From positions 1 through 42,399 of the forward strand of contig PMKP01000221.1 in NCBI GenBank assembly GCA_003157775.1: DNA of 42,399 bases, in the 5' to 3' direction. A model generated the notes under the pieces. It had not been told where the DNA came from and ran no database searches. It saw only the letters and a program-made list of their open reading frames with translations. Source of the DNA: Myxococcales bacterium. Its GTDB lineage: Bacteria; Myxococcota_A; Polyangia; Fen-1088. Made by a program: the position numbers and the translations under genes. Positions 15,855 to 26,325 of this stretch are shown in pieces. How positions within the stretch are numbered: position 1 is the first letter of the stretch; each line of letters opens with the position of its first letter.

Positions 15855-15974
15855 AACCCTGGACTATGCAAGCAGGAGACCAGCGCCTATGGCCTGGCCA
15901 GATGCGGGCCAGCGCGCTGCGGGTGTTGAGAAGCTGACAGACTTGTCCCGCGCCTGGCTGATTCTCAACAGAAC

Positions 15975-16115
15975 TCAGGCGTTGGACCCGCTATCGTTCG
16001 CCCTGGCCTGCCGCAGACGGCCCTCGCAGAAAATCCCGGCGCTTATGGCGGCCGCCACCATCAGCCAGCACGGCAACGGCACACCAAAAAGGGACAGCAA
16101 AGCACTGAAGCGCAC
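15975..16115 (-). CDS. Possible small membrane protein (46 aa), unconfirmed
   Basis: Between dapB and the flippase-like gene (16131-15855) a GTG-started ORF encodes 46 residues beginning MRFSALLSLFGVPLPCWLMV. The hydrophobic stretch continues as AAAISAGIFC and ends with a polar tail EGRLRQARANDSGSNA. It is co-directional with dapB, 16 bases after its stop, and too short for the ORF track. The Shine-Dalgarno match is weak (GTGGTGG). The hydrophobic-then-polar layout suits a small inner-membrane protein, but it may be chance. The remaining ~120 bases to 15855 show nothing recognisable. Confidence 0.25.
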   Translation of the reverse strand: MRFSALLSLFGVPLPCWLMVAAAISAGIFCEGRLRQARANDSGSNA

Positions 16116-16131
16116 TACCACCACTCAATGC

Positions 16132-17875: not shown

Positions 17876-19930
17876 CTACTCGCGCGTTGCCTCGGTGATC
17901 CGTACCCGTGCCCCTGCCACGACGGGCTGGGAAGTCTCGACGATGACGGCGTCGCCGGCGTCCAGGCCCTGGGTGATGACGGCATCGGCCGCGGTTCGAT
18001 CCGCTACCGTCACGCTGCGTGCCTCGGCCCGGCCCGTGGGCGCCACCACCAGAACCCGGTCAGTGCTACCCACGCGCGACAAAGCCGAAGCCGGCACGAG
18101 GAACGCCTCGGCAAAACGCGCGCGCACCAGACGCACCGGCTGGCCGGCCACCGTTGCCGCTTCGGGCGCCAGTTCGATGACCACGTGGTTTTCGTCGCCA
18201 CCATCGGGAGCAAGGCCGCACGCGACCGGCCGCCCTTCAATCTCGGCCCCGCACCAACCCTGCTTGCGGAAACCTGCGGCCGGCGCGCGCGGCAGCTCGA
18301 AACTGGCGCGCCATCCTGCCAGGCGCATGCGCACCGCCGGCGCGCCCGCCTGCACGGTCCGACCCAGGATAGCCAAGGTTGCCTCGATTTGGCCGGCTGC
18401 CTGGGCCACAACTGCCACGCGTGACAACGCCGCCTGCGTCTGCCCGACCAAGCCAGCGCTGATCTGCACCTTGGCCTGGGCCGCATTCGACCGCTTGTCG
18501 TCGCCCGTGTCTCGCACGCCTTGTGCAAGTTGCTCAAAGTACGCGAGCCGTTCTTGCTGCCGGGCCAGGTCGGCCAGTACCCCCCGGGCCGCGTCGGTCG
18601 CGGCCACCACGTCACCGGGCCGCAGCGAGATCCCCGGGGATGCGAGACGAATCACCTTGCCGCCTGCGGGGAAGCTCAGGACCTGACTGGGCAGTGCCTC
18701 CACCGGCGCGCTGCCGTCGAACCAGCGCACAACTGCGGCAGGTTTGGCGACAAGAACGCGTGCGCGCACGGCTGGGGGTGCGTGCGGGCTTAGCGCCACA
18801 GGCACCACCAGCACGCCAACAACCAAGGCCGTCAGAATGCCCAGCAGAGCGTAGAGAATCCATGGGCCGCTGTGCACCGTCGCGGAGCGCGCAGGTGCCG
18901 GCGTGACCAGGGGAGGGGGCGTCGGAATCGGCGGCGGAGTCACTATCCGGCGGGGCCCAGGCGTCGACATGCGAGCCCCACCCTGGATGGAATAAGGCCG
19001 GCTGGTGCTGTCGATAGCCTCTCCGTCGGACACGCGGTTTGCAGACCGTGGCTCCGCAAGTGGGGGTGGCGTCTTTGCCGAAGGCGACGGCGCCTTGTCC
19101 GGCACGGCAAGGGGCTGCGTCTCGGGCGGAACCGGCGCCAGCTCCGTGTCCGGCACGGCAAGGGGCTGCGGCTCGGACGGAACCGGCGACGGCTCGGGTG
19201 GGCTGGCCGCAGGAGGAGTCTCGACCGGCAGGGGCGTCGCGTCTGCGGATGGCAGAGACGTCTGGTCCTGCGACGGACGATCTGGCGACGTGCTTACTGC
19301 GGCTGCGGGCGGCTCGGCCCCAGGCAGCGCTTCCAATGAGGCCGTCTCGGTCGATGCCGTCTCCGCCTCGGGAAGAGCTGGCTCGGCTGCTAGCTCCTCC
19401 GTAGCCGGGCGTGATTCCGTCGCAGGAGGCGCCTCCGGGAGCGTAGAGGGCGGCGTCGGCGCGTCGTTCTCAACGGCCGCGGGTGGTTCGGGAACCGGCA
19501 AGGGCGCCTCGACTGGCACGGTCGGCAACGGGACCGGCAACGGCGTCTGCAAAGTCACCGGTTGCGGCGGGACCGGCGAGGGCGTCTGCGGGACCTCGAC
19601 AACCGGGCGGGTAGAGAGCGCCGGCGTTTTTTCCGGCGCGACCTCCGGTGTACTCTCCTTGTCTGACGCAAGAAAGCCAAGCTGCTTGAGACGTTCGGCG
19701 AAAGCCATGAGTTGCTCTTCCGTCAGCTCAAGCCCGGTCGAAAGCCGCACCCAAGGGATGACCTTGCCCAGAGGCCGGCCATCAAACGCGAGGGCGACCG
19801 AATACTCGTAGTCGAAGAGACGGAAGCTCGAACCACGCCTGGGATCGTGGACGTCGACGCATCTGACGCCATCTTCCTGCAAGATGGTCGAAACTAAATC
19901 GCGCCGCAGGCGCGGCCCGTCAAACGCCAT
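17876..19930 (-). CDS. HlyD-type membrane-fusion (adaptor) protein with PqqD-like head and Pro-rich linker
   Basis: About 684 residues from the ATG at 19930. Residues ~1-90 resemble a PqqD-like fold (DLVSTILQEDGVRCVDVHDP, FRLFDYEYSVALAFDGRPLG, AERLKQLGFL). A ~250-residue Pro/Ala/Glu/Ser-rich linker with internal repeats follows. Then come one membrane helix (ILYALLGILTALVVGVLVVPVAL) and a periplasmic adaptor part: lipoyl-like strands, a coiled-coil hairpin (LADLARQQERLAYFEQLAQG to LSRVAVVAQAAGQIEATLAIL) and a beta-barrel tail. Such adaptors bridge inner-membrane transporters to outer-membrane channels, but neither partner lies nearby. The ORF track starts at 20158 by running into a glycosyltransferase gene fragment; that extension is probably spurious. 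Confidence 0.75.
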   Translation of the reverse strand: MAFDGPRLRRDLVSTILQEDGVRCVDVHDPRRGSSFRLFDYEYSVALAFDGRPLGKVIPWVRLSTGLELTEEQLMAFAERLKQLGFLASDKESTPEVAPEKTPALSTRPVVEVPQTPSPVPPQPVTLQTPLPVPLPTVPVEAPLPVPEPPAAVENDAPTPPSTLPEAPPATESRPATEELAAEPALPEAETASTETASLEALPGAEPPAAAVSTSPDRPSQDQTSLPSADATPLPVETPPAASPPEPSPVPSEPQPLAVPDTELAPVPPETQPLAVPDKAPSPSAKTPPPLAEPRSANRVSDGEAIDSTSRPYSIQGGARMSTPGPRRIVTPPPIPTPPPLVTPAPARSATVHSGPWILYALLGILTALVVGVLVVPVALSPHAPPAVRARVLVAKPAAVVRWFDGSAPVEALPSQVLSFPAGGKVIRLASPGISLRPGDVVAATDAARGVLADLARQQERLAYFEQLAQGVRDTGDDKRSNAAQAKVQISAGLVGQTQAALSRVAVVAQAAGQIEATLAILGRTVQAGAPAVRMRLAGWRASFELPRAPAAGFRKQGWCGAEIEGRPVACGLAPDGGDENHVVIELAPEAATVAGQPVRLVRARFAEAFLVPASALSRVGSTDRVLVVAPTGRAEARSVTVADRTAADAVITQGLDAGDAVIVETSQPVVAGARVRITEATRE
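19096..19188 (-). repeat. Tandem repeat in the Pro-rich linker of the adaptor gene
   Basis: Two 42-base copies 51 bases apart (19096-19137 and 19147-19188) differ at two positions and encode the linker motif PETQPLAVPD / SEPQPLAVPD. This is coding-level duplication that could change linker length by slippage. Confidence 0.65.
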
Positions 19931-20094
19931 GCCTGCATCTTTACCCGTGGATCGCGCCGGAGCCAACCCCCACAGATCAGTTTCGCCAATCGAGATGGAC
20001 GCCGTGGCCGTGGTCGCGACGGGCGCGCGCGAAACGCGCGGGGGAGGCGGGCTGGGCTGTCCGTCAGCCCCCGAAGGGGGTGGCTGTGGCCGGG

Positions 20095-20142
20095 CAGCCA
20101 CCTGACGAATGAGATTGAAGTAGCGGATAGCGCCGCGATCAG
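20095..20142 (-). pseudogene. Glycosyltransferase gene fragment 1 (N-terminal piece)
   Basis: CGAATGAGATTGAAGTAGCG is shared exactly with the intact glycosyltransferase gene at about 26203-26222, and the similarity extends over about 48 bases with a 3-base deletion. Translated on the minus strand it reads DRGAIRYFNLIRQVA, against DRGGAIRYFNLIRQVA in the intact protein (residues ~29-44). It is fused in frame to the 5' side of the HlyD-like ORF and abuts the DUF1566 stop codon. Confidence 0.75.
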
Positions 20143-20536
20143 CGCACACAATGAACACTGCTCACGTTGGACACGTCGAAGCTGTACGCCTGGCCGGAAT
20201 CGAGATAGACGGCCCACGCGTGGGACGGCGAGCCAGCCAACGGAGACGAAGACCAGAAGCGAGTCGCCGGTGTCGACGGTAAGGCTATCGAATCTATCGA
20301 TGGGTCAGCCTGCAATTTGTCGACCATAGTTTCTAGTTCCTCAATCGTCGGGAGGCGCCAGCCCATGCCTCCCAGGCTCCTGCCCACACCTGCACAGTAT
20401 GTCTTGGCATCGAGCCACGTGTACGTGGTTGACGATACTGTCTGTTGCCGGGTCAGTGCCGGCGGAGGATCTGCAGAGGCGTGCCTCGACCACGAGGCGT
20501 AGTCTATCCCATCGCGTCCCCGCCGACGTCGCCTGG
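20139..20536 (-). pseudogene. Truncated DUF1566 (Lcl C-terminal-like) gene
   Basis: The minus-strand reading carries the hallmarks of DUF1566 domains: TYTWLDAKTYCAGVGRSLGG, WRLPTIEELETMVD, a PSIDSIALP segment, TRFWSSSPLAGSPSHAWAVY and a terminal VHCVR before the stop. These domains are normally the C-terminal part of exported lipoproteins. Here the 5' end is missing: the open frame continues upstream into a second glycosyltransferase fragment (QAQRLRDVAVGTAVSLVP) instead of a signal peptide. The ORF at 20139-20600 is thus a chimera and probably not a functional gene. Confidence 0.65.
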
Positions 20537-20596
20537 TGGGGACCAGCGACACCGCGGTGCCGACGGCCACGTCGCGTAGGCGCTGGGCCTGGATTG
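20537..20596 (-). pseudogene. Glycosyltransferase gene fragment 2 (central piece)
   Basis: About 60 bases match 25658-25718 of the intact glycosyltransferase gene with roughly 10-15% mismatches. GGGGACCAGCGACACCGCG and GGCGCTGGGCCT are identical blocks. It encodes QAQRLRDVAVGTAVSLVP, against EAQRLRAVAAGSAVSLVP in the intact protein. Similarity stops sharply on both sides. Confidence 0.72.
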
Positions 20597-20659
20597 CCAT
20601 TTGCGTCTACTCCGCGACCCGCTACGCTTTGTTGTTCACAAATCGACAGGAGAGGCGAC

Positions 20660-21586
20660 ATGCACAAAAACGATCGCCGCGCGTTCATGAAGGCTGGCCT
20701 CGCCATCGGCGCGGTCGGCTTGGTCGAGTCCATGGGAATCGGGCGCGCTTTCGCGGCCGCTGCGGCCAGACCCGACATCGTCGCGGTCAAGGGGGCAGAC
20801 GCCTTTGCCAGCACCACCAAGGCGCTGGAGGCGCTGGGCGGAATGAAGCGATTTGACACCCAGGGCCGCCGCGTGGGACTGCTCATCAATGCCCCGCCGC
20901 ACTGGAAACTCGAGGGAAGCCACACCCGGATGGAAGTTGCACTCGCTGTGGCCAAGATGTGCCTCGATGCCGGAGCCAAGGAGATCATCACCCTACCGGT
21001 GCTGGGGCCCAAGTTCTGGACCGGCTCGCCGCTCGGCGAGACTCATGCCAAAGTGATCAAGTCGCTCAAGCAGTGCTCGGGAAGGACGGTGGAGACGAAG
21101 ATCCCCAAAGGTGTCCTGCTCAAGTCGGGGAAGGTTCGGCCCGAGCTGCTCGACGTGGATGTCCTGGTGAACATCCCGATCGCCAAGCACCACGTCGGAA
21201 CCATGTTCAGCGGCAATCTCAAGAACATGATGGGCGGCCTCGATCACGAGACAAACGCGTTCTTCCACAACGGCTCCGGCAAGACCGGTTATGAGGATGT
21301 GGACTTCCTCTCACAGTGCATCGCCGACCTGAATACGTTGCGCAGGCCGAACCTGTGTGTCGCTGACGCCACCGTCGTGCTCGGAACCAACGGCCCCGCG
21401 GGCCCCGGCGATCTACTGCAGCCGCAGAAGATCGTGGCCGGCATGGATCCGGTCGCAGTCGACGCGTACTGCGTGACCCTGCACAGCCGCAAGCCGCAAG
21501 AGGTGGTGATGCTCGCCAAGGCCGCCGCGGCAGGAGTCGGGCGCGCCGACTTCCAGAAGCTCAACCTCCAGGAGATCGCAATCTGA
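20660..21586 (+). CDS. Tat-exported DUF362-domain protein
   Basis: A 308-residue protein with an N-terminal twin-arginine signal (NDRRAFMKAGLAIGAVGLVE to GRAFA), implying folded export. The body matches DUF362: HTRMEVALAVAKMCLDAGAKEI, VDVLVNIPIAKHHVGTMFSG, NLKNMMGGLDHET and a C-terminal VVAGMDPVAVDAYC. No 4Fe-4S ferredoxin domain, present in some DUF362 proteins, is seen. The ATG at 20660 is preceded by CAGGAGAGG; the ORF track's earlier start at 20399 lies in fragment sequence. The enzymatic role of the family is not established. It stands alone between two glycosyltransferase fragments, suggesting a transferred or rearranged block. Confidence 0.85.
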   Translation: MHKNDRRAFMKAGLAIGAVGLVESMGIGRAFAAAAARPDIVAVKGADAFASTTKALEALGGMKRFDTQGRRVGLLINAPPHWKLEGSHTRMEVALAVAKMCLDAGAKEIITLPVLGPKFWTGSPLGETHAKVIKSLKQCSGRTVETKIPKGVLLKSGKVRPELLDVDVLVNIPIAKHHVGTMFSGNLKNMMGGLDHETNAFFHNGSGKTGYEDVDFLSQCIADLNTLRRPNLCVADATVVLGTNGPAGPGDLLQPQKIVAGMDPVAVDAYCVTLHSRKPQEVVMLAKAAAAGVGRADFQKLNLQEIAI

Positions 21587-21656
21587 GCAAGGGGCTCGGT
21601 ACCCCGAGAAGCCGGAGCAACTGACCGGTCGTTGACCGGCCATCGATGAGATCCTC

Positions 21657-21998
21657 CTAGCTCGACGAAGCCGACCTCGGCGAGTCCGCGGCCGCTCGCC
21701 GTTCATCGCCCGCCGCAGCTGCGGGAATCTCGTGGGACGACCCACCGGGCATTTCGCCCCTGCTGGCGGTGGCGCCAACCGCGAGCCCAAGCTCGTCCAT
21801 GCGCTCGGCTTCGCCCGCTAGCCGCTTCGCGCAGGTCATCCACCGTTCCGTCACGCAGTCGGTTTCTCGACAGGACTCGCAAGCTTCAAGACTCGGAGGA
21901 ACATCTTGAATGACTTCCTGTCGAAGACGAGTCCAAATTGCACTGAGCCGGAGACTAGCGCTCATGTCTTGAACCTCTACTTCTCTGCTTGTCGACAT
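21657..21998 (-). CDS. Small Cys-rich protein of unknown function
   Basis: A 113-residue ORF with a folded-looking N-terminal half (MSASLRLSAIWTRLRQEVIQ) containing CESCRETDCVTERWMTCAKRL. This is a C-x2-C-x4-C-x7-C arrangement with a Trp that could bind a metal. The C-terminal half is Ala/Ser/Gly-rich and likely disordered. The first ATG (21998) and a second at Met12 are both usable; GTGGA lies five bases upstream of the first. It has no overlap with a better ORF, converges on the DUF362 gene and lies beside a glycosyltransferase fragment. I do not recognise a named family. Confidence 0.5.
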   Translation of the reverse strand: MSTSREVEVQDMSASLRLSAIWTRLRQEVIQDVPPSLEACESCRETDCVTERWMTCAKRLAGEAERMDELGLAVGATASRGEMPGGSSHEIPAAAAGDERRAAADSPRSASSS

Positions 21999-22052
21999 GA
22001 TCCACGAAAAACCTTACGACGGCAAAATTTTGCTGATAGTTTTTCGTGGCTC

Positions 22053-22152
22053 TTGATGGTGACGGTGCTGACCAGGTCGCGCAGCTTCGTTTCCAGGGAA
22101 CGCGAGCAATAGGGCCAATTGACCAGCGGCCTACCGCGCTGAAGCTGTTCCC
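22053..22152 (-). pseudogene. Glycosyltransferase gene fragment 3 (residues ~92-125)
   Basis: About 100 bases align without gaps to 25952-26051 of the intact glycosyltransferase gene, with roughly 12 mismatches. GGTGCTGACCAGGTCGCGCA is an identical block. Reading frame sense is minus strand. It ends about 95 bases before the start of the lipoprotein gene at 22247. Bases 21999-22052 and 22153-22246 show no further recognisable coding sequence. Confidence 0.78.
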
Positions 22153-22246
22153 CGCCCCAGTCCTACGCGCAGGCTGGTACTCTTCGGCTTTTCACGTAGA
22201 ATTGGTCCTTCTCGCGAATTTGTCTACTGGACCGGAGGATTGACAT

Positions 22247-24823
22247 ATGCCCAACTTTTTCCGAACAGGCTCCTGGATTTTCGCTGTCATCGCGTTGTTG
22301 TCCTTGCAAGCATGCTCCGGCAGCAGCAGCAGCAGCAACGCAGGAGACGCGGCCAGTGCCCATCTCGGTCGCGACGGCGGAGCACCAACCGGTAGCGTAA
22401 CTCCTCTCAGCCTTCCGGCCTTTTCGCCGCCAGATCAGAACGTCATTATCGGGCGTGTGGTCGACTCAAACGGGAAGGGAGTCGCTGGCGCCACCGTGAC
22501 CTATGTCGGCGGCGGAACCGGCACGGCGAACTACGATGGGTTTTACTACATCGCCGATGTCGCCCCGGCCGATCGCATTGTCCTGACCTTCCAGGCCGAC
22601 GGCTATGTCACCACCACGGGCATCGGCACCATGGTCGCGGGTGGCAATGTCACCGTCAACGCGGTCATGCTCCAGCGTGGCGCGGGTCAGCCGGTCAACA
22701 GCGCAGACGGCGGCACCGTCACCTTTGCCAGTGGCGTGGTGACACTTCCACCCGGTACGGTTACCGATTCCTCGGGCAACAACTACTCAGGCAGCGTCAT
22801 GGTGCACGTCACGCCGGTGACCATCAAGGGTATCGGAATTCAGGCCGCACCCGGTGATTTCAGTGCGACCTCCGCCGCTGGCGCGACAGTGCAGCTTGAA
22901 ACCTTCGGCATGGGCGCGTACGAGCTGGCCGACAGTGCAGGCAACCCTCTGCAGGTAAAGAGCGGAGCCAGCGTGGGGGTCGAGATGCTGCTTCCTGCGG
23001 GTACCAAGCTGGTGGCTGGCCAGACCGTCCCTGCCTGGCATTTCGACGACCAGTCCGGGCGCTGGGTCGAAGAGGGGAGCGGTACGGTCGGCGTGTCGTC
23101 CCTCGACCCGGCTCGTCTCTCCTACAAGTTGAATGTCGGCCATTTCTCCAACTGGAACTGCGACCAACCCTATGACACGACCTGCGTGAGCGGCACCGTC
23201 ACCTCGGCCTGCGACGGCAGTGCCATCGTGGCTGATGTCCGCGCCGGCGGGATTTCCTACGACGGAAGTAGCACTGGATTCGCCAGCGCCAGCGGCCAGT
23301 ACTGTGTCGCGGTCAAGACGGGATCGACTGTCATGCTTACGGTTTCATCGGGATACGGGGCCAATCGTGTCGTGAGTGCGGTCCAGGTGTCGAGCGGCAG
23401 CGCAACCTCCGCGTGCCCAGGGCCGTGCACCGTCCAAGACATCGTCCTGCCTTGCACGCCCGCGGACAATGACGTCGATTGTGGTGACGACTATTTCAGC
23501 GGATGCAAATCTTGCATCCAAGGCCGGGTGGTTGACGATTCGGGCAATCCCGTGGCGGCCATGCTGAAGGTCAAGACCGGCATCAACACCTTGACCGCCG
23601 TGACCGACTCTTCCGGCCACTATTGCTCGTCGGCCGCGCTCAACATACTCACGACCATCGCCGCCAACGCCGAGGGCGGTGCTGGCACCGTCACGACGAC
23701 GCCCACAACGCCGGGTGCGTGCCCGAACTGCAACCAGGCTCCCGACATCGTGATCACCCAGAGTCAGACCACCGGCACCAGCTCGGGAATCGACTTCAGC
23801 CAGTGTCCCACCAGCGTTGGCGGGATTATCATCAACAGGCTTCAGGCCAATGGCACCGATCCGGCGTTGGCTGCTCTCGATTCTGGCTGGATTCTTGCCT
23901 CGAAGGGAGACTCGTCGAGCGGGATTCAATCCTACGTCATCTCCGGCGTTCTCGTTTCCAGCAAGGCCGGCGGGATTTCTTTCGCACCGCAAGCGACCTT
24001 CGAGCTTGACCTGGCCGCCCCGCCGAAGGCAGGTGCGGTGTACGCCGTCCAGGCCGTGTCGGACGACTCGTACCAGATCTCTGGCGACGCGACTTCGTCG
24101 AGCGGCGCGCCGGTCGGAATGGGAAGCGAGTCGTACAAGATCGATACCTCGTCGTCACCCGTGCTCGGCTCGGGACAGATCGCGTTCAGCACGGGCTTTG
24201 CCAACCCCGGCGATCCGGTCAAGGGATCGCTGACGTTGACCTTCGGCGCCAACTGCGCGGCTCCAAGCGCGTCGCTGACCGTGCAAGCGACCATCGACAC
24301 CGTTCTCCAAGACGCCATGGGACTCATGCCGACCGTGCTCGACCCCAATGCCCCGGCTTTCAAGGCCTGGGAATGCAGTCTGTTCAGTCTGATGTCACTG
24401 ACCACGGCGGGATTCTCTACCGGGGCAGTGGAAGTTTCCGTGGACGGCGTGCCCATGGCCGGCAGTAACTCGCTTACATCCGCTGAGTACTCGTGGACCG
24501 AAGACCAGCTCCAGATTTCCTACTACGGCGACACGGGGCTGTTCTCGGCCACGGTCGATCATCCGCAGATCGGGGCCAACGCCGTGAGCTCTGCCACGTA
24601 TTCCGACGACAGCGCGAGCGGTTGTTGGTTCACCCTAGGGCAGGGCACTGTGACCCTTCCCAACTTTGCCGGCGCAGACTCAACCCGCTGGATGACCGGC
24701 TCGTTCGAGGTCGACTTCACCGGGACCAATGTGGGCAGCGCCACTGCGAGCTGCGGGACCCCCAAGGCGACAGGGCAGTTCGGCGCACCAGTTTGCGCCG
24801 GTATGAGCACCCTCTTCCATTGA
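22247..24823 (+). CDS. Large secreted lipoprotein with carboxypeptidase-regulatory-like repeats
   Basis: An 858-residue exported lipoprotein. The signal ends in a lipobox (LLSLQAC, Cys ~23) followed by a Ser-rich tether. Residues ~66-145 form a carboxypeptidase regulatory-like beta-sandwich (IIGRVVDSNGKGVAGATVTY, YDGFYYIADVAP). Next is a region with VTFASGVVTLPPGTVTD, similar to domains of CILP/ZU5-type proteins. Two more sandwich-like copies follow (CVSGTVTSACDGSAIVADV and CIQGRVVDDSGNPVAAMLKV), with paired cysteines. The last third is Ser/Thr-rich beta structure of unknown type. GGAGG lies about 10 bases before the ATG. A cell-surface binding or structural role is likely; no enzyme motif is seen. 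Confidence 0.8.
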   Translation: MPNFFRTGSWIFAVIALLSLQACSGSSSSSNAGDAASAHLGRDGGAPTGSVTPLSLPAFSPPDQNVIIGRVVDSNGKGVAGATVTYVGGGTGTANYDGFYYIADVAPADRIVLTFQADGYVTTTGIGTMVAGGNVTVNAVMLQRGAGQPVNSADGGTVTFASGVVTLPPGTVTDSSGNNYSGSVMVHVTPVTIKGIGIQAAPGDFSATSAAGATVQLETFGMGAYELADSAGNPLQVKSGASVGVEMLLPAGTKLVAGQTVPAWHFDDQSGRWVEEGSGTVGVSSLDPARLSYKLNVGHFSNWNCDQPYDTTCVSGTVTSACDGSAIVADVRAGGISYDGSSTGFASASGQYCVAVKTGSTVMLTVSSGYGANRVVSAVQVSSGSATSACPGPCTVQDIVLPCTPADNDVDCGDDYFSGCKSCIQGRVVDDSGNPVAAMLKVKTGINTLTAVTDSSGHYCSSAALNILTTIAANAEGGAGTVTTTPTTPGACPNCNQAPDIVITQSQTTGTSSGIDFSQCPTSVGGIIINRLQANGTDPALAALDSGWILASKGDSSSGIQSYVISGVLVSSKAGGISFAPQATFELDLAAPPKAGAVYAVQAVSDDSYQISGDATSSSGAPVGMGSESYKIDTSSSPVLGSGQIAFSTGFANPGDPVKGSLTLTFGANCAAPSASLTVQATIDTVLQDAMGLMPTVLDPNAPAFKAWECSLFSLMSLTTAGFSTGAVEVSVDGVPMAGSNSLTSAEYSWTEDQLQISYYGDTGLFSATVDHPQIGANAVSSATYSDDSASGCWFTLGQGTVTLPNFAGADSTRWMTGSFEVDFTGTNVGSATASCGTPKATGQFGAPVCAGMSTLFH

Positions 24824-24900
24824 CCGGGCGGCGTTCTGCGGCCCGCCGCGCAGGCGCCAAACAACCTGGAGCGCTGCCTGTTTGCCGCAAAAATGACGGC

Positions 24901-24933
24901 CCCGCATTCGCCATCCATGAATAATGCGGGCTA
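24901..24933. repeat. Hairpin carrying a copy of the MITE-like terminal sequence
   Basis: CCCGCATT (24901-24908) pairs perfectly with AATGCGGG (24923-24930) around a 14-base loop. TGAATAATGCGGGCTA (24918-24933) equals the inner 16 bases of the right terminal repeat of the element at 13561-13787. It lies in the convergent gap 24824-25077 between the lipoprotein and glycosyltransferase genes. It may be an element remnant, a terminator or both. No other feature is seen in the gap. Confidence 0.5.
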
Positions 24934-25077
24934 ACCGGCCACGCGCTGGCCTTCCTTCGGCCAGCCTATGCCGTCTGCGCGAGTCGGTGCAGTGTGCTCA
25001 ACCCATTTGCTCAACCCATTCGGGGTGCCGGTGAGTCGGGCGGCGGGCACGCTGGGTGTAGCTGCGAAGCCCAAAGG

Positions 25078-26325
25078 TCAGACTGCCAACAACTCGTCGT
25101 AGACGCGGAAAAGCTGCTCGGCGATGCCTGTCCAGTCGTAGTCCCTTTCCACCAGCGCCCGCGCCTGCTGAGTCAGGCGGGCCGCGAGCGCGCGGTCGGT
25201 CAGCAGGCGCGCCACCGCTGCGGCGAAAGCTTCGGCGTCGTTTGCGATGAGCAGGTGCTTGCCGTCCTCGACTGCAAGGCCTTCGCAGCCAAGCGAAGTG
25301 GAAACCACCGGCCGCCCCAACGCCATGGCCTCGAGAATCTTCAGGCGGGTTCCCCCACCGGCGCGCAGCGGCACAACCGCGATATGCGCATTTCCATAGT
25401 AAGGAATGGGCGAGCTGGCGCGGCCGACCAACTCGATGTCGTCGCGCCCAGCAAACTCGCGGAGCGCGCGAGGCGTGCCTTCGCCCACCACAGTCAGGCG
25501 GGCTTCGGGGATGCGGCTGCGCAGAGCGGGCAGGATGTGGCGCGCGAGAAAACGGACCGCGTCTAGGTTGGGCGGGTAGCGCAAATGCCCGACGAAGATC
25601 AGCCGCTTGCCGGCTGCGGCCTCGGGAAGCGGGCGCAAAGCCGCCGTGTCTACACCGTTGGGGACCAGCGACACCGCGCTGCCGGCGGCCACCGCGCGCA
25701 GGCGCTGGGCCTCGATTTCAGAGACCACCAGGCAACGGTCGAAACGCGCGGCATGGCGGGCCTCCCAGCCGCGCATGAGGAACGCCTTTGCCAGCAAGCC
25801 CAGCTTCTCCATTGCCCCCACGTGCATGCTCAGCATGCTGCGGGACTGGGTCTCGCAGAAGTTGTGGAACGATAGGATCGTCCGACAGGGTGAGCCGTCG
25901 GGCACGGCATCGCGGAAATGCGCGAGAAAGGAATGCTCAATCTGAAGAATGTTGATGGTGCCGGTGCTGACCAGGTCGCGCAGCTTGCTTTCCAGGGAGC
26001 GCGAACAATAGGGCCAGTTGACCAGCGGTTGACCACGCTGAAGGTGCTCCCAGAAGTCCCGCGTGCGCGCGATCGCGGAGCCGGAACGCATGACGGCCCA
26101 CTCGACCCGCTCGCAGAATGGCGCCAGCTTGGGCACATGGCGGGCTTCCTCAGCCGACTCAAGCACGGCGAAGAGCAAGACGCGGTATCGGGTCGCCACC
26201 TGGCGAATGAGATTGAAGTAGCGGATGGCACCGCCGCGGTCAGTGGGCCAAGGTAGGCCGTAGGTCAACCACAGAACCGTCTTGCGCTGATCCTGGGCCT
26301 GATCCGGTTTTCCGTCTTCATCCAT
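25078..26325 (-). CDS. Family-4 glycosyltransferase (TIGR03087-like, exopolysaccharide type)
   Basis: A 415-residue GT-B glycosyltransferase. The N-terminal acceptor domain begins VLWLTYGLPWPTDRGGAIRY. The donor domain has the usual GT4 elements: LIFVGHLRYPPNLDAVRFL, LTVVGEGTPRALREF, IPYYGNAHIAVVPLRAGGGT and the EALALG-like KILEAMALGRPVVSTSLGCEG. It resembles the sugar transferases of the PEP-CTERM/EpsH-associated group (TIGR03087), suggesting surface polysaccharide synthesis, though no exosortase is visible. It starts 64 bases after the PilZ gene and is probably co-transcribed with it, hinting at c-di-GMP control. Three short decayed pieces of a related gene lie at 20095-22152. Confidence 0.88.
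   Translation of the reverse strand: MDEDGKPDQAQDQRKTVLWLTYGLPWPTDRGGAIRYFNLIRQVATRYRVLLFAVLESAEEARHVPKLAPFCERVEWAVMRSGSAIARTRDFWEHLQRGQPLVNWPYCSRSLESKLRDLVSTGTINILQIEHSFLAHFRDAVPDGSPCRTILSFHNFCETQSRSMLSMHVGAMEKLGLLAKAFLMRGWEARHAARFDRCLVVSEIEAQRLRAVAAGSAVSLVPNGVDTAALRPLPEAAAGKRLIFVGHLRYPPNLDAVRFLARHILPALRSRIPEARLTVVGEGTPRALREFAGRDDIELVGRASSPIPYYGNAHIAVVPLRAGGGTRLKILEAMALGRPVVSTSLGCEGLAVEDGKHLLIANDAEAFAAAVARLLTDRALAARLTQQARALVERDYDWTGIAEQLFRVYDELLAV

Follow-up and report, generated by a model that had tools for sequence, protein, structure and literature searches.

About 5 kb of DNA has been gained in the window (the whole stretch of 42,399 nucleotides analysed here) between two genes that are adjacent in relatives. 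The locus shows the turnover of a bacterial genome in progress and is unusual in detail, not in kind. Part of the gained DNA is a strip of about 2 kb in which three short pieces of the neighbouring glycosyltransferase (GT) gene are tiled with pieces of unrelated genes and with dispersed repeats. This strip is a readable record of gene gain and loss at an intergenic site without visible mobile elements, in a little-studied soil lineage of myxobacteria.

Genomes and sequences compared

The window is contig C85 of the metagenome-assembled genome G000 (5.48 Mb in 485 contigs, 87% complete, 4.8% contamination). The comparison set consisted of six genus mates (G001-G006), with one genome per species, and other genomes of the family were searched too. 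Identities and E-values of the GT pieces come from independent searches, the E-values referring to the whole genome G000, and local short repeats were surveyed in a 0.92-Mb sample of the genus. No tRNA gene lies within the window, and neither integrase nor transposase domains were found among the insert proteins tested. Ku and ComEC were found in all seven genomes of the genus (7/7); ComEC is widespread and is weak evidence. Elsewhere in the window, about 150 nt (15970-16131) are missing from the same junction in most of the genus mates compared.

Table 1. Features of the window at and around the acquired segment.
Feature	Position	Strand	Remarks
Left flanking gene, RND periplasmic-adaptor-like	17876..19930	-	Pro-rich N-terminal half
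Acquired segment	20017..25067		5.05 kb; missing from this junction in G003, G004 and G006
Dispersed repeat 1, REP-like, G+C-rich	20017..20090		GCGACGGGCGCGCGCGAAGCGCGCGG...CCCCCGAAGGGGG; intergenic; 43 matches in G000, many in genus mates
GT piece A	20091..20142	-	GT codons ~29-46; 85% identity; E 1e-9
Inner piece of DUF1566/Lcl_C gene	20142..20457	-	Corresponds to residues ~51-156 of a paralogue (452 aa; contig C83)
Dispersed repeat 2, ~80 nt	20456..20534		Across the genus and in genus g5
GT piece B	20537..20595	-	GT codons 203-222; 90% identity; E 4e-15
DUF362 gene, complete	20597..21586	+	Start 20660, 63-nt leader; same ends elsewhere, unrelated flanks
Aldo/keto reductase gene tail	21587..21640	+	Last 16 codons and stop, QGARYPEKPEQLTGR*
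Orphan ORF with Cys pairs, 113 aa	21657..21998	-	One relative (48%), in G015 (another genus)
Inverted repeat	22002..22051		CCACGAAAAAC...GTTTTTCGTGG; adjoins GT piece C, upstream of orphan ORF; folds well, z -4.1
GT piece C	22053..22152	-	GT codons 92-125; 88% identity; E 4e-29
Lipoprotein-like gene	22247..24823	+	Carboxypeptidase-regulatory-like domain; remainder of acquired segment
Intact GT, group 1	25078..26325	-	Nearest NCBIfam model TIGR03087, score below the model's cut-off

The junction between the GT and adaptor-like genes

In alignments with the window, the GT stop codon and the adaptor-like gene are about 97 bp apart in G003, 10 bp in G004 and 290 bp in G006, and this near-empty junction identifies the 5-kb segment of the window as acquired. 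At the same place G002 carries 3.6 kb of cargo (an RCC1-repeat protein and two lipoprotein-like ORFs) and G005 carries 4.1 kb (one YidD-domain and one TPR-like protein, and a PIN-domain toxin-antitoxin-like pair), in both cases unrelated to the content of the window. Three near-empty sites versus three different cargoes between the same conserved neighbours make the junction a recurrent insertion site and, as far as sequence comparison can tell, it appears to be an insertion hotspot. The lipoprotein-like gene of the window has no relative among the 17 genomes of the family that were searched for it. On the other side of the junction, the adaptor-like ORF extends to 20158 through GT piece A, and relatives keep a start that corresponds to the Met codon at 19930; the counterpart ORF in G005 (L029) starts MAFDGPRL.

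Tiling of the strip and its joints

A DNA search of the family resolves 20017-22152 into tiled pieces, which follow one another in the order repeat 1, GT piece A, inner DUF1566 piece, repeat 2, GT piece B, DUF362 gene, aldo/keto reductase tail, orphan Cys ORF and GT piece C (Table 1). The sequence-only reading from which this analysis started had described a mosaic in which GT fragments alternate with a truncated DUF1566 gene and with a block made of the DUF362 gene and a Cys-rich gene. All of these components are present, and the DUF1566 gene is indeed truncated, being cut at both ends. The strip is nevertheless more of a patchwork than had been noted, as that description missed the two dispersed repeats, the reductase tail and the absence of 20017-25067 from three relatives. 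From repeat 1 to the reductase tail the gaps between neighbouring pieces measure 0-6 nt. Among the joints for which both parents are known, that between the DUF362 gene and the reductase tail is blunt, and those between repeat 2 and piece B and between piece B and the DUF362 gene contain 1-2 filler bases. The joints of the strip are private to G000 and, since they are old, the exact breakpoints are approximate.

The G015 relative of the orphan Cys ORF does not adjoin a DUF362 gene, and the inverted repeat at 22002-22051 is possibly a terminator or an operator. The chimeric ORF at 20139-20600 joins GT piece B, repeat 2 and the DUF1566 piece; together with the ORF at 17876-20158 it carries a warning for annotation, since such read-through frames can pass as chimeric or extended genes although they are patchwork.

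Three pieces of the GT gene

Fragments of the GT gene had been reported at 20095, 20537 and 22053, all in the same orientation and with roughly 85-90% identity to the intact gene, and our searches confirmed the position, orientation and identity of each. Pieces A, B and C are all direct relative to the intact GT. With E-values from 1e-9 to 4e-29, and with states in piece C that are specific to the GT of the window, the matches are neither due to chance nor confined to widely conserved codons. The genome-wide look for the same fragments that had been proposed yielded a single other match to the GT in G000, a 34-nt stretch on contig C120, which was ruled out as a further piece because it belongs to a response-regulator-like gene with a common codon run. 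When the other genomes of the family were searched at the DNA level, the GT pieces of the strip matched the GT gene and nothing else. Similarity to the GT was also sought between pieces A, B and C, and no trace of it was found. Every known GT is 10-15% divergent from the pieces, which have no long identical words in common with other copies.

On the minus strand the order of the pieces is C (codons 92-125), B (203-222) and A (29-46), so that C and B follow the order of the gene, from which A departs. As the sequence-only reading had held, this is not the order of one decayed gene; a single decayed copy is insufficient, and a minimum of two additional GT copies or acquisition events is required. 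After polarisation against five genus mates, piece C and the GT of the window have in common two derived nonsynonymous states that are absent from the mates, and none is common to the GT of the window and piece A or B. Since the two derived amino-acid states are otherwise found only in the GT of the window, piece C was copied inside the lineage of the window. Changes private to the pieces number 2, 3 and 5 at codon positions 1, 2 and 3, respectively, which are too few to weigh heavily; such a spread would be expected of DNA released from selection. We infer that the GT scraps are functionless, and that the working genes of the locus are the intact GT, the DUF362 gene and perhaps the lipoprotein-like gene.

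The earlier proposal of repeated recombination or insertion into a former tandem copy holds insofar as broken-up GT duplicates are concerned, given the direct pieces, the copying of C within the lineage and the abutting non-homologous joints, and falls short in that one copy is not enough. Nor could a former tandem copy be traced in the relatives, none of which keeps a tandem array; in G003, G004 and G006 a single GT stands directly beside the next gene.

The DUF362 gene and its constant ends

In several genomes the DUF362 gene has constant ends, which reach from just upstream of a promoter-like TTGCAG-N16-TACGCT to the stop codon plus 0-2 nt (copies compared: L114:7075-8064, L115:1090-2079, L116:127-1113, L117:6967-7956, L118:9034-9839, L119:158-1146 and L120:1388-1582). 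The flanks, compared over up to 3 kb as contigs allow, are unrelated in all pairs except on the left side of G004/G006. The copy of G015, which belongs to another genus, shows 86% amino-acid identity versus 88% for the genus mates. The gene is mostly single-copy per genome; it has an internal deletion in G005, and all that is left of it in G003 is the final ~197 nt, at a distance of about 4 kb from the site where G004 and G006 carry the gene. DNA that has moved may be trimmed by selection down to the transcription unit; alternatively, genes may travel singly, as units, by some route. These constant ends may be of more interest than the GT strip.

A flanking-gene scrap in a second lineage

The cargo of G005 contains, in direct orientation, a 51-nt piece from the C-terminal end of a PilZ gene, the source of which lies just upstream of the GT. 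The PilZ piece is abutted on one side by a 42-nt dispersed repeat and on the other by a VapB-like antitoxin frame, which is followed by an intact PIN toxin frame (arrangement at L029:6983-7687). At the joint with the VapB-like frame 3 nt (CTG) are in common, and the piece replaces the first codons of that frame, which are still present in G000:C72 and G004:C93. The PilZ piece of G005 and the GT pieces of the window indicate that direct scraps of flanking genes arose independently in two lineages. Two further PilZ-like matches were rejected as scraps: that on G003:C206 falls within a long ORF of a different type, whereas that on G001:C319 is the PilZ gene itself.

Nearly all of the short, low-copy local repeats in the 0.92-Mb sample are direct, but many of them are tandem paralogues or intragenic repeats. 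Several other local repeats turned out to represent tandem paralogues, repetitive lipoprotein genes or dispersed repeats and were discarded as scraps. What remains is a weaker, isolated piece of a gene on G006:C165 (~83929-83975; 85% identity to the neighbouring gene). On G000:C475 (15556-19740), a repetitive lipoprotein-like gene stands beside collinear decayed pieces of itself, which is likely a decayed tandem duplicate.

Discussion

The history that we prefer, and to which we give about half of our confidence, is repeated insertion, anchored on one side by GT homology and closed on the opposite side by an illegitimate join, with deletion thereafter. DNA, incoming or duplicated, would have entered the junction more than once in the lineage of the window, one end being anchored by homology to the GT gene and the other sealed by a join of the end-joining type. 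Each event would have displaced part of a GT copy while keeping its orientation, bringing or trapping the DUF362, DUF1566, aldo/keto reductase and lipoprotein sequences, and later deletions would have trimmed the redundant GT copies to scraps of 50-100 nt. The involvement of incoming DNA and the role of the GT as anchor are both putative. We favour such homology-anchored insertion because of the contrast between near-empty junctions and varied cargo, the all-direct GT pieces, the PilZ piece of G005, the abutting joints of poor homology with 0-2 filler bases, the copying of piece C within the lineage and the presence of Ku and ComEC. Against it, no donor was found, nor any intermediate that retains a complete second copy of the GT. 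Moreover, homology-facilitated illegitimate recombination (HFIR) would be expected to spare 3' parts of its anchor; the three pieces derive from other stretches of the GT codons, so that further deletions must be assumed. The main rival, nearly as good although somewhat doubtful in itself, accounts for the orientation equally well: plain tandem duplication would have supplied at least two extra GT copies, which would then have suffered deletion and, as they decayed, would have been invaded independently by unrelated genes. The pieces lie near their source, C and B could be one copy split by the DUF362 block, and intact tandem paralogues as well as a collinear decayed neighbour occur elsewhere in the genus (G006:C72, G002:C163, G000:C475). 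However, other species that lack GT duplicates also have unrelated cargo at the junction, the misplaced piece A requires a third copy, and every piece is cut back to the very edge of an unrelated one. The extra copies may have come from tandem duplication or from homology-anchored insertion of incoming DNA.

The remaining explanations are considerably weaker. Patches of 50-100 nt, copied from neighbouring genes into break-repair joints much as in double illegitimate recombination of short segments, would explain the piece sizes (46-100 nt), the blunt or 1-3 nt joints and the lack of any GT trace between the pieces; we nevertheless think this unlikely, as the same neighbour gene would have been picked three times in one orientation, and PilZ likewise in G005, which is not to be expected if any genomic DNA can serve as source. 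Chimeric joins made by the metagenome assembler might be suspected in a bin as fragmented as G000, to which the joints are private, but such an artefact would require at least eight joints in 2 kb, the divergent pieces offer no long identical words to cause a false join, and the separate bin G005 has its PilZ piece at the same junction; we hold this to be very improbable. Least probable is an integron-like or other site-specific cassette system that would move DUF362-type single genes with defined ends and leave the GT scraps as collateral. In an integron gene cassette the stop codon is followed by an attC site some 60-140 nt long, and the DUF362 gene was rejected as such a cassette since similarity between its copies ends 0-2 nt past the stop codon, with no attC-like stretch beyond. 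Its constant ends in several settings would suit a cassette, but the insert proteins that were tested revealed no integrase domain, the gene is rarely present in more than one copy, and its ends coincide with the transcription unit, so that selection alone would keep them.

As an unlikely extension, the genus might move single genes (DUF362, VapBC-like and others) as promoter-to-stop units into intergenic sites, the same process pasting 50-100-nt scraps of neighbours; if this is true, the GT strip is one record of it. The near-empty sites in three relatives and the flanking-gene scraps in two lineages make the joining mechanism testable, as scraps from anchor genes only would point to homology-anchored insertion and scraps from anywhere to templated patching.

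Comparison with known systems

Stepwise displacement by HFIR has been described for Vibrio T6SS immunity arrays and Rhs loci (Kirchberger et al., 2017; PMC5361080). The locus resembles these systems in its one-sided conserved anchor, in new genes beside the anchor and in older leftovers pushed back in the same orientation; it differs in that toxin-immunity logic is absent, the leftovers are non-functional scraps of 50-100 nt and no intermediates are seen. Non-homologous joints are visible, and the homologous end is putative. By analogy the locus may work like the displacement model, of which it is a candidate member.

Decayed tandem duplicates likewise consist of direct, diverged pieces of an adjacent gene, whereas in the window the order is not collinear overall and the pieces are interleaved with unrelated gene pieces and dispersed repeats; collinearity fails for A and fits only with two or more copies. 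In Acinetobacter, Harms and colleagues are said to have described in 2016 short double illegitimate recombination patches, in which short heterologous segments are joined at poor homology. The segments and joints of the window are similar, but here the segments stem from adjacent genes and keep their orientation.

Hotspots of gene turnover that lie between core genes and lack recognisable mobile elements are known from strains within a species (Oliveira et al., 2017; PMC5635113). Here, too, the same two flanking genes enclose different accessory genes in relatives, with no tRNA gene inside the window and the tested insert proteins free of integrase domains, and the locus shares with hotspots this testable feature, varied accessory genes between the same neighbours. 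It differs from them in that the comparison spans six related species instead of strains of one, and scraps of the flanking genes inside the cargo are an added feature of the locus.
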